A stretch of 31,771 nucleotides of DNA from a virus, in IMG/VR virus record IMGVR_UViG_3300022743_000288, positions 1 through 31,771 of that record, one strand, 5' to 3'. Below are positions 8,784 through 11,836 of the stretch, piece after piece. A program made the position numbers and the translations under genes. How positions within the stretch are numbered: position 1 is the first letter of the stretch; each line of letters opens with the position of its first letter. Under the pieces are notes generated by a model. The model was not told the origin of the DNA. It saw only the letters and a program-made list of their open reading frames with translations, and made no database searches.

Positions 8784-8880
8784 GCAATGGCCGCGCTGGA
8801 CTTCGACTCGCCTGGCCCCCTTTGGGGTGATGGCGCCCTGTAGCCGGCGCTGCTCAAATTCAGTGCAGGAGGTTGGCGCA

Positions 8881-9084
8881 ATGACCGTGATTCAGGATCT
8901 GCAGGCGGTGCTGATCGAGGCGCTGCTGCGCGAGGTGACGCCGGAGCAGGCGGGCAGGGTGCTCGACCGACTGGTGCGCGTGGTGGACGGGCCGGCGTTC
9001 GTGGTTGGCGACGATGAGGATGAGGCTGCTGCGGCCTGGCTGTCGGAGATGATGACGCGGTTGCGGATTGCAGTTCGGGCATGA
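8881..9084 (+). CDS. Small 67-residue protein between PL-like promoter and the lysogeny module
   Basis: ATG 8881 is preceded by a strong AGGAGG site (8869-8874). The product, 67 residues, starts MTVIQDLQAVLIEALLREV and is helical and acidic (DDEDEAAAAWLSEMM). No family recognised. It is the only plus-strand gene in a minus-strand stretch from 1088 to 11436. Its stop touches the A-run of the terminator at 9088-9106. It may be divergently transcribed from the OL region, though I see no good plus-strand promoter there. Possible roles (a small antirepressor or host-interaction protein) are guesses. Confidence 0.65.
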   Translation: MTVIQDLQAVLIEALLREVTPEQAGRVLDRLVRVVDGPAFVVGDDEDEAAAAWLSEMMTRLRIAVRA

Positions 9085-9129: not shown

Positions 9130-10134
9130 TCAATCCTGTAGGTTGGCCTGCACCTGGAACGGCTCAATGTGGTCAACCTGCATGATCCTGGGGCGCCCTG
9201 TAGCGTCAGCCTCGTAGCGACCCCGAACCACCACCCCGGCACCCAGCAGCTTCCGGGCCATCTCGACGTGCAGCGCGTCCACGGCGCACCGCAGCGTCCC
9301 GACCCCGGGAACGTTGCGCAACTGGAATCGGCGGGCATCCAAGTCGACCTCGCGCACCTCACCGACGAATACTCCATCCTGTGGCGCCATCATCATCGGT
9401 GTGCGCCGCGTGGCATCGCGCAGCACAACCCGTTCGCGCTGACCCAGCACGCCGCTGATGCGCCCCATGCCGCCATTTCCAGGGGACGAGATGTCCACGG
9501 TGTGGATGCCCTTGTGCCCGGTTGGCGCCATCTCGCAGGCGGCCACCATCGCTGCATCGCGCAGCGCGGGGTCCGGCAGCGCATCGAAGATCTCGCGCCG
9601 CACGTCGGTGTCCGAGACGAACTGCGGCACCATCGGCAGGCTGTGCATGGCGCCACGTACCAGCAGCATCGCTGCCCCTCCGTCATCCAGCCCCAGCGCA
9701 CCAGGCTCTGCATCCGCAATCGAGAACCCCAGGTACAGGCTGCCCGGCGCCATGCCAGTCAGGCGCAGATCCAGTTCACGACTGGCTGCTTTGGCATCGT
9801 CCTGCGCCATCGGGAGCACAGCCTGCACCAGAGTGCGCAGGCGCTTCTCCATGCGTGAGCACAGCCAGTTCACCGTGCTGAGGCTGGGGCTGTGCTCGCG
9901 GGCGCCTGGGCCTTCAGCGTGAACGACCAAGTCTGACCCATCCAGGATGACGGCGAGCGGGAAATCTTCCGAATAGAGGCGGTCGAGCAAATCGAAATAG
10001 GGGCTACCGTCCGCCAGCAGCAGGGCGGGGTCCATCTGCCCTGTCGTGCGCAGCAGCGTCTGAGCCGCCTGTATCTGACTGTGGACCAGGTGCGCACGGC
10101 GGTGGGTCTGCCATTGCCATGACTTGTTCACCAT
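9130..10134 (-). CDS. Unknown 334-residue protein, partner of the DUF6932 protein
   Basis: No family recognised. The protein is soluble and has no signal peptide. Residues 1-110 are mixed helical with SPYFDLLDRLYSEDFPLAVI. Residues 130-200 contain SLYLGFSIADAEPGA and a Met/Val-rich stretch. The last 80 residues (about 252-330) look like a compact beta-barrel: GVFVGEVREVDLDARRFQLR, a hydrophobic centre with LLGAGVVVRGRYEAD, then GRPRIMQVDHIEP. ATG 10134 overlaps the DUF6932 stop by 7 bases (ATGGTGA), so the two are translationally coupled. Downstream is a strong terminator. It sits in the lysogeny transcription unit behind the repressor, which suggests a lysogenic-conversion role such as superinfection exclusion or a toxin/antitoxin partnership (inference). 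Confidence 0.8.
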   Translation of the reverse strand: MVNKSWQWQTHRRAHLVHSQIQAAQTLLRTTGQMDPALLLADGSPYFDLLDRLYSEDFPLAVILDGSDLVVHAEGPGAREHSPSLSTVNWLCSRMEKRLRTLVQAVLPMAQDDAKAASRELDLRLTGMAPGSLYLGFSIADAEPGALGLDDGGAAMLLVRGAMHSLPMVPQFVSDTDVRREIFDALPDPALRDAAMVAACEMAPTGHKGIHTVDISSPGNGGMGRISGVLGQRERVVLRDATRRTPMMMAPQDGVFVGEVREVDLDARRFQLRNVPGVGTLRCAVDALHVEMARKLLGAGVVVRGRYEADATGRPRIMQVDHIEPFQVQANLQD

Positions 10135-10583
10135 GTGTCGATCCTCAGAATGCCCTTGGCGTCCTTCTCCTGCAGGTTCTTGGCCTGCGCCGTCTTGGGT
10201 CCGACGTACTGGAAGAAGAGCGTGAAGTCACTATTGTCGGACAAGGTCGGATACCAGTCGATGGCGAGCAGTGATTTCAGCGGGTGGTGTCGCCGGGTGT
10301 AGAACACGACGGCCAAGCCGGCCGTCGTGTCCGGCTGGCCTCGCACGTCGAGCGTCACCTCCACGTCGCCGGGATGCTCCTTGTCGGTGGTGAAGCTTCC
10401 GTCGATGTGCAGAGCGCCACGCAGACCAGCCACCCGCATCTCGTCCAGGCACGACAGCAGGCAGTTCCACCGTGCCCGGCGCGTTGCGTTGTGACTTCCG
10501 AAGGCGGCCTCGGCCTCACGGAGAGAGCAGGCATGGACGCCGGGCGGTAGCAATCCTGTGTCAAGGTTCAGTGGTGGAATCAT
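10128..10583 (-). CDS. DUF6932-like, nucleotidyltransferase-fold protein
   Basis: A 151-residue protein that opens MIPPLNLDTGLLPPGVHACS, the typical start of DUF6932 proteins. It carries a minimal nucleotidyltransferase signature: GS at 62-63, then D73-V-E75 (IDGSFTTDKEHPGDVEVTL), and a third acidic residue, D109, in LAIDWYP. Families with this fold include TA-system and defence nucleotidyltransferases, but no substrate can be inferred. ATG 10583 has a G-rich SD (AGGGGGTG) 8 bases upstream. It overlaps the upstream 38-codon ORF by 23 bases and the downstream gene by 7, forming a compact cassette. The family name is from memory of the N-terminal pattern and the motif. Confidence 0.75.
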   Translation of the reverse strand: MIPPLNLDTGLLPPGVHACSLREAEAAFGSHNATRRARWNCLLSCLDEMRVAGLRGALHIDGSFTTDKEHPGDVEVTLDVRGQPDTTAGLAVVFYTRRHHPLKSLLAIDWYPTLSDNSDFTLFFQYVGPKTAQAKNLQEKDAKGILRIDTW

Positions 10584-10677
10584 CTTCGCTGCACCCCCTG
10601 AGCAGCAGTTCTATTGCTTGTGCAATTCGCGCCCCGTCTGCGGGGTATTTTGCGTAGCGCAGCGGCAACTGCGCCAT
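10561..10677 (-). CDS. Possible 38-residue protein at the head of the DUF6932 cassette
   Basis: An ORF from ATG 10677 giving MAQLPLRYAKYPADGARIAQ and then AIELLLRGCSEDDSTTEP. The composition is protein-like, unlike the Arg/Ser/Pro-rich alternative frames. It overlaps the DUF6932 start by 23 bases. In-frame codons continue upstream to a possible TTG at 10713 (QLLDRTNPKTRDT). The SD is weak, so the start is uncertain. It could be a small antitoxin-like partner or a leader peptide. It fills most of the 193 bases between the repressor stop and the DUF6932 start. Confidence 0.4.
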   Translation of the reverse strand: MAQLPLRYAKYPADGARIAQAIELLLRGCSEDDSTTEP

Positions 10678-10776
10678 CGTGTCTCTGGTCTTCGGGTTCG
10701 TCCGGTCCAGCAACTGCGGCTTAATGGTGGACTGGGCTGTGCCATCGCTTCAGTCCACATCCGCATCACTTGGCGA

Positions 10777-11436
10777 TCACCGCCGACTCTTCCGCCCCAC
10801 AACGCCACCGGCGATGTAGACCGCGACCACGACCGCGCCTGACTGCGACGTGATTGCCTGGTGCTTGCCGGCCTTGTTGACCGGTGCCGCGACCCAGCCC
10901 TCGGCCCCGAGGGCGATGAACTCGCGCAGGTGGTGCTGGTCATCGGCTGCACGCACAAGCACCCAGTCTCCAGTCACGGCTGACGCCGCAAGGTCGCGCT
11001 GCAGCTCGACGTAGTCGCCCTGCCGCAGGTCTGGCGCCAAAGAGTCGTCACGCAAGGTCAGCCTGAACACGTTCGGTAGGTCATGCATGTGAAGTTCCTC
11101 CCATGCAACCATCTTCGGTACTGGCTGTACATCCAGTGTGTGAATATTCACAGGTACGCCGGCTTCAGGGGGCTTGCCGACCGGGATTGAGCGATCCGGA
11201 AAAGTGGCGCCGTTTCCGGATCTCCAGCGCGGACTCCCCACGCCGGTTGCCAGCCAATTCTGGTCACACCCGAGAAGCTGCGCGGCCCTCATGGCCGGCT
11301 CCGACTTGATGCTCTTCGTCTTCCCTGTCACCCATGCGGCAACTGATGGTGTTTTCACATGGCAGGCGCGCGCAAGGTCTGCCTGCGTGATTCCTGGGTT
11401 CCTAGCCATTGCCTCGGCTATTCGGTCTTTGAGCAT
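10777..11436 (-). CDS. CI-like prophage repressor (HTH + S24 peptidase-like)
   Basis: A 219-residue repressor. An HTH lies at about 15-38 (ITQADLARACHVKTPSVAAWVTG); the S24/LexA-like C-terminal domain covers about 95-210. An Ala-Gly pair at 92-93 (PEAGVPV) fits the autocleavage site and S132 in DDSLAPDLRQGDYVEL fits the nucleophile. Two departures from the family: the usual GDSM is DDSL, and the position of the catalytic lysine appears to be R171 (HHLREFI). It would bind the TAGGYNNRCCTA operators on both sides and hold lysogeny. ATG 11436 abuts operator 11437-11448 with no SD, so the transcript may be leaderless, as for lambda cI. The downstream DUF6932 cassette probably shares its transcript. 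Confidence 0.9.
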   Translation of the reverse strand: MLKDRIAEAMARNPGITQADLARACHVKTPSVAAWVTGKTKSIKSEPAMRAAQLLGCDQNWLATGVGSPRWRSGNGATFPDRSIPVGKPPEAGVPVNIHTLDVQPVPKMVAWEELHMHDLPNVFRLTLRDDSLAPDLRQGDYVELQRDLAASAVTGDWVLVRAADDQHHLREFIALGAEGWVAAPVNKAGKHQAITSQSGAVVVAVYIAGGVVGRKSRR

Positions 11437-11506: not shown

Positions 11507-11836
11507 ATGAGCACAAACCTGATCGACCAACTCGGCGGACCGACCGCTGTATCGAGGATGACGGGGCGGCGCGTACCGACAGTCATTCAGTGGCGCGAAT
11601 GCGGAGTTCCCGCGATGTGCGCCCCATTCATCGAGAGAGCCACCGGCGGCAGGCATCTCGTCGAGGCCATGTGCCCGAAATCGCCATGGTTGCGCGTGCC
11701 AGATCCAAAGTGGCCTCATCCGCTTGGCCGGCCGGTAATTGACCCGACCGCCGCTTCGATCCCCTCGTCATCGGCCGGCACGCCCAGTACCTCAGTTCAG
11801 CCCATCGTGCAGACCGCACAGAGGGAAGCGGCATGA
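11507..11836 (+). CDS. Cro/YdaS-like DNA-binding protein
   Basis: A 109-residue protein with an N-terminal Cro-type HTH at about 6-40 (LIDQLGGPTAVSRMTGRRVPTV, IQWRECGVP) and a Pro/Ser-rich C-terminal tail. It is divergent from the repressor, with three operator-like sites between them, the classic Cro position. The start at 11507 coincides with the expected transcription start of the 11472-11500 promoter, so the message may be leaderless; only GAGG immediately precedes the ATG. It should repress the repressor gene and both early promoters during lytic growth. The stop overlaps the next ATG (ATGA). Confidence 0.85.
   Translation: MSTNLIDQLGGPTAVSRMTGRRVPTVIQWRECGVPAMCAPFIERATGGRHLVEAMCPKSPWLRVPDPKWPHPLGRPVIDPTAASIPSSSAGTPSTSVQPIVQTAQREAA

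Follow-up and report, generated by a model that had tools for sequence, protein, structure and literature searches.

A predicted DUF6932 nucleotidyltransferase-like gene and its OB-fold partner form a conserved pair in the rex position behind phage repressors

A DUF6932 gene (gene A) and the gene for a 334-residue partner (gene B) form a pair that stands in the rex position, downstream of a repressor. The two genes overlap, evolve under purifying selection and are exchanged together between immunity modules; the product of gene A carries conserved nucleotidyltransferase (NTase) residues, and that of gene B ends in a modelled OB fold. We studied the pair in a 31,771-bp virus record from IMG/VR, here called the window. 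Our working interpretation, which we regard as an even call, is that the pair is mobile lysogenic cargo and works as a toxin–antitoxin-like exclusion module, in which the NTase A would control the OB-fold effector B. A preliminary description of the window had seen a lysogenic cassette comparable to rexAB of lambda. Of this interpretation, the conserved pair and its rex position behind many unrelated repressors stand, but a 38-residue ORF counted as a member of the cassette does not.

The cassette is encoded on the minus strand in the order repressor, 38-codon ORF, DUF6932 gene, 334-aa gene and terminator, and all four ORFs were found as first described. The CI-type repressor (219 aa; 10777..11436) combines HTH and S24-like parts, and its gene presumably opens the lysogeny transcript. 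It matches phrog_4, transcriptional repressor, among the PHROGs (2.6e-15), and the Pfam families HTH_3 (2.5e-4) and Peptidase_S24 (1.3e-4), the latter two slightly under the curated cut-offs. A YdaS-like cro gene diverges from it on the plus strand (11507-11836); integrase, YqaJ recombinase, DUF1376 protein, terminase, P22-like coat and tape-measure genes are also encoded in the window. Gene A (151 aa; 10128..10583) and gene B (9130..10134) overlap by 7 nt. As previously noted, these overlapping large genes end at a terminator: an intrinsic hairpin on the minus strand (9106-9088; AGCCCGC-AAAGA-GCGGGCT-TTTTC), with a 7-bp stem, six G-C pairs and a T-tract, closes the cassette 24 nt beyond the end of gene B. 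A search of the minus strand between repressor and cassette found no terminator-like site. Likewise, no sigma-70-like promoter was found in this interval by a scan insensitive enough to have missed the repressor's own promoter. A small ORF on the plus strand (8827-9084), for which no family match was found, converges on the cassette and stops at the same, nearly symmetrical hairpin.

Profile scans yielded a set of 27 distinct loci, comprising the window, a Caballeronia humi locus (L001), two more genomes from a search of its family (L007 and L008, the latter with the same cassette region as the IMG/VR locus L019) and IMG/VR contigs. Single- and two-sequence scans of IMG/VR missed these relatives, which were found with a four-sequence profile; in the phages collection both window proteins were absent at E 0.01, and the partner was also not found in plasmids. 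Both genes occur in 26/27 loci, overlapping by 4, 7 or 16 nt where tabulated, while the partner in L062 is truncated. When IMG/VR was scanned with DUF6932 and the partner left unused, an intact gene B adjoined gene A in 20 of 21 loci and a truncated one in the other. The two large proteins are thus paired elsewhere, and the scattered distribution without co-occurrence that had been envisaged as a counter-indication was not seen. Between close relatives, dN/dS, where measurable, is about 0.01–0.12 for the partner and 0.05–0.26 for DUF6932. These low values indicate that genes A and B are real genes under strong purifying selection, and their distribution across genomes marks them as a conserved pair.

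A repressor gene lies upstream on the same strand in 24/27 loci, a number that counts loci and not independent events, with phage relatedness left unmodelled. It is within 193 bp in 17 loci and has a 4-nt stop–start overlap in six; in the remaining repressor-linked loci, repressor and pair are separated by as much as 1.9 kb containing small ORFs. The rex position proposed at the outset is borne out by this count and by DUF6932-plus-partner pairs that occupy the actual rexAB place of lambdoid coliphages. Among 23 upstream regulators scanned, 15 contain HTH_3 and 10 Peptidase_S24. Three loci lie outside the rex position, namely L001 in a bacterial island and L037 and L038 in other phage regions.

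Where the repressors share 24–30% identity, A and B can be 82–95% identical. In L013 and L015, for example, A and B are 89% identical and the repressors 24%; in L014, L016 and L018, B is 90–95% identical behind repressors of 24–30%. Such closely similar cassettes behind dissimilar repressors show that the cassette moves between immunity modules while keeping its place. The repressor of the L091 phage is 56% identical to that of the window over most of its length, yet this phage lacks the cassette. In L021 (4967-6701), two different repressor-like genes stand in tandem ahead of the cassette. The recurrence of the pair's relatives in the same spot in dozens of viruses suggests a role in guarding the infected cell against rival viruses.

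The 38-codon ORF (10561-10677, minus strand) had been listed as a cassette gene, but is best read as part of the relict C-terminal tail of another, short non-S24 repressor (10561..10713). Several related loci carry the gene of a short repressor, with fewer than 200 residues, immediately ahead of DUF6932. This repressor ends in ...VREAAGRLLLSYAQDPTDGTRIAQALEALL (L043) or ...VRDKITGLMMNYLDNPAGGERIAKAIEVLL (L062), to which the window frame, LLDRTNPKTRDTMAQLPLRYAKYPADGARIAQAIELLL, aligns locally with scores of 86 and 79, respectively (2000 shuffles: mean 30.5, max. 53). The similarity starts upstream of the ATG at 10677. The window frame overlaps the DUF6932 gene by 23 nt, as the L062 repressor does by 20 nt. 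We discarded the idea that this ORF encodes a small toxin or antitoxin, because the ORF matches a repressor tail with a score well beyond the shuffled maximum. In the simplest account, an S24-type repressor would have taken the place of the upstream part of an older repressor gene, whose tail would have stayed joined to the cassette. The resulting scar illustrates one way in which such cassettes may swap their repressor, by recombination inside repressor genes. Short phage repressors of seven loci (L036, L039–L041, L043, L062 and L024) share the C-terminal motif L..Y..DP..G..IA.AI..LL, which may serve as an oligomerisation tail.

Gene A matches Pfam PF22014 (DUF6932; E 2.4e-21) and the PADLOC model PDC-M63A (PDLC04744; 3.9e-9). 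Residues typical of pol-beta NTases are conserved across 24 aligned sequences: G62, S63 and D73 in 24/24, E or D at position 75 in 24/24 and D109 in 23/24, which answers the question raised earlier about D73, E75 and D109. The AF2 model of gene A has a pLDDT of 96. Its best structural neighbours are the putative minimal NTases 1ylq (Z 5.9; rmsd 4.0, 90 aligned) and 2rff (Z 5.7), followed by AadA (Z 5.4) and HEPN-MNT proteins, but ribosomal and designed proteins reach Z 5.2–5.6. Nucleotidyltransferases also ranked top when the DUF6932 profile was compared with PDB sequences, at a non-significant E of 0.23. Gene A therefore probably encodes a minimal pol-beta nucleotidyltransferase-like protein, for which the motif is clear and the fold scores are modest. 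At ~150 aa, DUF6932 proteins are minimal like MNT antitoxins and are without the extra domain typical of NTase toxins. A literature search found no paper on DUF6932.

The partner had been described as belonging to no known family, which holds against Pfam, PADLOC and PHROGs, where gene B has no match; NCBIfam gave one chance-level model only, and a profile search of PDB sequences found nothing. Its AF2 model (pLDDT 87.6, pTM 0.67) consists of an alpha/beta part (residues ~1–247) and, at residues 248–331, an OB fold, which accounts for the beta-barrel-like end recognised initially. The OB fold resembles those of SSB (4dam, Z 9.2; rmsd 3.6, 79 aligned), PriB (4apv, Z 8.5) and RPA. No catalytic site and no HEPN domain were recognised in gene B. 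A good match of both proteins to ordinary metabolic enzymes, which the preliminary description had named as speaking against its reading, was not seen. At full length, the BFVD matches are a protein of Leptospira phage LE1 and a viral protein named DUF6575 (E 1.5e-7, rmsd 16.6). DUF6575 is among the domains first tied to defence in PMC9519451. Membership of gene B in DUF6575 was rejected, as Pfam PF20215 matches 0/24 members of the partner family at E<=1. Two DUF6575 matches were found in Pseudomonadota, both partial.

PDC-M63 is a candidate two-gene system of PADLOC whose gene A is a DUF6932 gene. In the lambdoid phages mEpX1 and PhiR30_1 and Erwinia phage vB_EhrS_59, PDC-M63AB (PADLOC E down to 1e-45; DUF6932 by Pfam) lies precisely in the interval that separates cI from the N/kil region. 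All 20 PDC-M63AB loci in IMG/VR lie directly behind a cI-type, repressor-like gene, and cassettes of equal identity to the query stand behind several different repressors. Among 5,426 complete E. coli genomes, the mEpX1-type pair is present in 18 and the PhiR30-type in 96. Gene B of the window has no match to the PDC-M63B models, which match 2/24 members of its family with a best E of 0.03. Alignment of the two partner families with hhalign gave collinear scores of 27.8–31.5 over 68–244 columns, compared with a mean of 14.3 and a maximum of 24.0 for 110 unrelated phage proteins. As one column-shuffled control scored 35.3, homology of the window's gene B to PDC-M63B is probable rather than proven. 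A PDC-M63B search of 321 genomes gave no match, but its controls were silent too, hence this is no sign of absence. When PDC-M63AB was deleted from an E. coli NILS69 prophage, sensitivity to ten virulent phages stayed the same (PMC12409345). Temperate phages, with which a prophage naturally competes, were absent from the challenge collection of that study; because the phages were all virulent, the test may have used the wrong challengers.

DUF6932 also occurs with other partners. A scan of 388 Pseudomonadota genomes gave 17 matches and 15 loci with an intact pair, in all of which DUF6932 directly precedes the partner gene; in the two broken loci, a stop lies within DUF6932 (L100) or the next gene is a short fragment (L102). 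The 15 partners are of the PDC-M63B-like type (three), a third type (seven), the window type (one, in the L001 genome) and an XRE-ImmA/IrrE type (four). The third partner family is unnamed, has ~305–334 aa and the motifs GSHGI and GSFGFELE (L094, L095, L096, L099, L101, L104, L108); single comparisons link it to PDC-M63B (E 1.2e-5) and to the window family (E 1.2e-3). On Agrobacterium and Sinorhizobium plasmids, DUF6932 is followed by PD-lambda-2_B (XRE-ImmA/IrrE; 1e-75 to 1e-77) and PD-lambda-2_C (1e-37 to 1e-41), and thus occupies the slot of the HigB-like A gene of PD-lambda-2. Examples are Sinorhizobium pCB3126_2 (L064, 4082-6826), with DUF6932 in the A slot and B and C present, and Agrobacterium pAt1D1460 (L012, 1-7361), where the operon lies beside AAA ATPase, helicase and reverse-transcriptase genes. 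In PD-lambda-2, which has been tested experimentally, B is toxic, A neutralises B and C is required for defence (PMC9519451). The position of DUF6932 in the A slot of such operons links the family to toxin–antitoxin systems. A defence setting is indicated by the Caballeronia humi copy (L001, 6138-11377), which clusters with an integrase, a CAP12-like protein (E 2.2e-4) and a CapW/BrxR-like regulator (E 1.8e-82 to a WYL protein). In the Streptococcus satellite phage Javan304 (L070, 3337-5372), the gene of a DNA-binding protein is followed downstream by a DUF6932 frame, which the annotation covers only in part, and by a 294-aa gene, so that the arrangement looks like a Gram-positive satellite version of the window's layout.

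For the exclusion module, we infer the identity of the toxic partner, nucleotidylylation, lysogenic expression, the trigger and the defence phenotype as follows. In a lysogen, the repressor transcript would yield both proteins, and A would keep B inactive by binding, or by nucleotide addition as MntA does to HepT. Infection by an unrelated phage would upset the balance of A and B, and the freed B would block phage or host nucleic-acid metabolism, resulting in superinfection exclusion by abortive infection. Gene A is favoured as the controller because of its minimal size, the MntA precedent and the slot it takes in PD-lambda-2-like operons. The negative PDC-M63AB deletion, the modest NTase fold scores (best Z 5.9), the 3/27 loci outside the rex position, the failure to recognise a catalytic site in gene B and the resemblance of the XRE-ImmA partners to an antitoxin speak against this model.

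The roles of the two proteins could be reversed, which we consider unlikely but worth weighing. DUF6932 would then be an effector NTase acting on tRNA, nucleotide or protein, and the OB-fold partner a sensor and antitoxin that releases it on phage nucleic acid, as in AbiE or MenAT. DUF6932 is the sole recognised enzyme and the constant part of these cassettes, and its partners (XRE-ImmA/IrrE, OB-fold) look regulatory; the XRE protein is second in order, as in HigBA, and the OB folds of SSB, PriB and RPA bind single strands. The XRE-ImmA partners of DUF6932 also match RmrA, the antitoxin of RosmerTA, from which it follows that A could be the toxin. Against this stand the MNT-antitoxin-like size of DUF6932, its lack of the extra domain of NTase toxins, and the neutralising role of the A gene in the PD-lambda-2 slot that it fills (PMC9519451).

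A function in prophage stability or lysogeny control is improbable. The pair would act as an addiction module, or modulate the repressor switch as RexA does for CI, and lie in the repressor operon for dosage. The constant repressor linkage, including 4-nt overlaps able to couple translation, and the one negative defence test of a relative fit such a function. However, the same pair lies away from repressors near defence genes in L001, DUF6932 is found in plasmid PD-lambda-2-like operons, and the unrelated repressors ahead of the pair make a specific effect on one CI unlikely. It is very unlikely that the pair rides passively in a recombination hotspot and plays no conserved part in competition between phages, as strong purifying selection, constant pairing and conserved active-site residues outweigh the recombination scar ahead of the window cassette and the known mosaicism of the cI-to-N interval (PMC8585504).

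Returning to the exclusion module, we tentatively propose, at somewhat less than an even chance, that it represents a widespread, hitherto unrecognised class residing in repressor operons. In this class, DUF6932 NTases would control fast-diverging OB-fold effectors or, in other elements, XRE-proteases. Its members would occur in proteobacterial prophages, in lambdoid coliphages and perhaps in Gram-positive satellites, and would pass as whole cassettes from one immunity type to another. That the rex position harbours defence genes (RexAB, BstA) is already known, and DUF6932 pairs are already listed in PADLOC. As far as our searches went, it is new that this pair is firmly linked to repressor operons and moves from one immunity type to another; the scar, a partner subfamily that had gone unrecognised and the link to PD-lambda-2 are also new. 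These findings give an orphan Pfam family and a PADLOC candidate an exact location and a probable time of expression, in the lysogeny operon that is home to RexAB and BstA.

Like RexAB of lambda and RexABpp of P. putida, the window pair consists of two genes downstream of a CI repressor with presumed lysogenic expression, but family searches gave no match to RexA or RexB and identified no membrane-protein partner. The overlapping exclusion genes of Fc02 were considered and set aside, being different genes located upstream of the repressor. BstA is likewise encoded downstream of the repressor in diverse prophages and serves in defence (PMC8585504), but is a single, different protein with a DNA self-immunity element. 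MntA–HepT (HEPN-MNT) also joins a minimal NTase, in this case a known adenylyltransferase antitoxin (PMC7641770), to a second protein, and DUF6932 has MNT proteins among its structural neighbours; the partner differs, with no HEPN domain recognised in gene B. In PD-lambda-2-like plasmid operons, DUF6932 replaces the small A gene of the original system (Vassallo et al., 2022; PMC9519451), whereas the window lacks the XRE-ImmA/IrrE and C genes, given that gene B has no PADLOC match and is followed by a terminator. Although gene B of the window lies outside the PDC-M63B models, with remote profile similarity only, the cassette shares with PDC-M63 the Pfam family of gene A, a second gene of similar size (~310 aa in PDC-M63) with a short overlap, and carriage by prophages. 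The question of whether PDC-M63 is a defence system thereby becomes directly testable with standard lambdoid phages.
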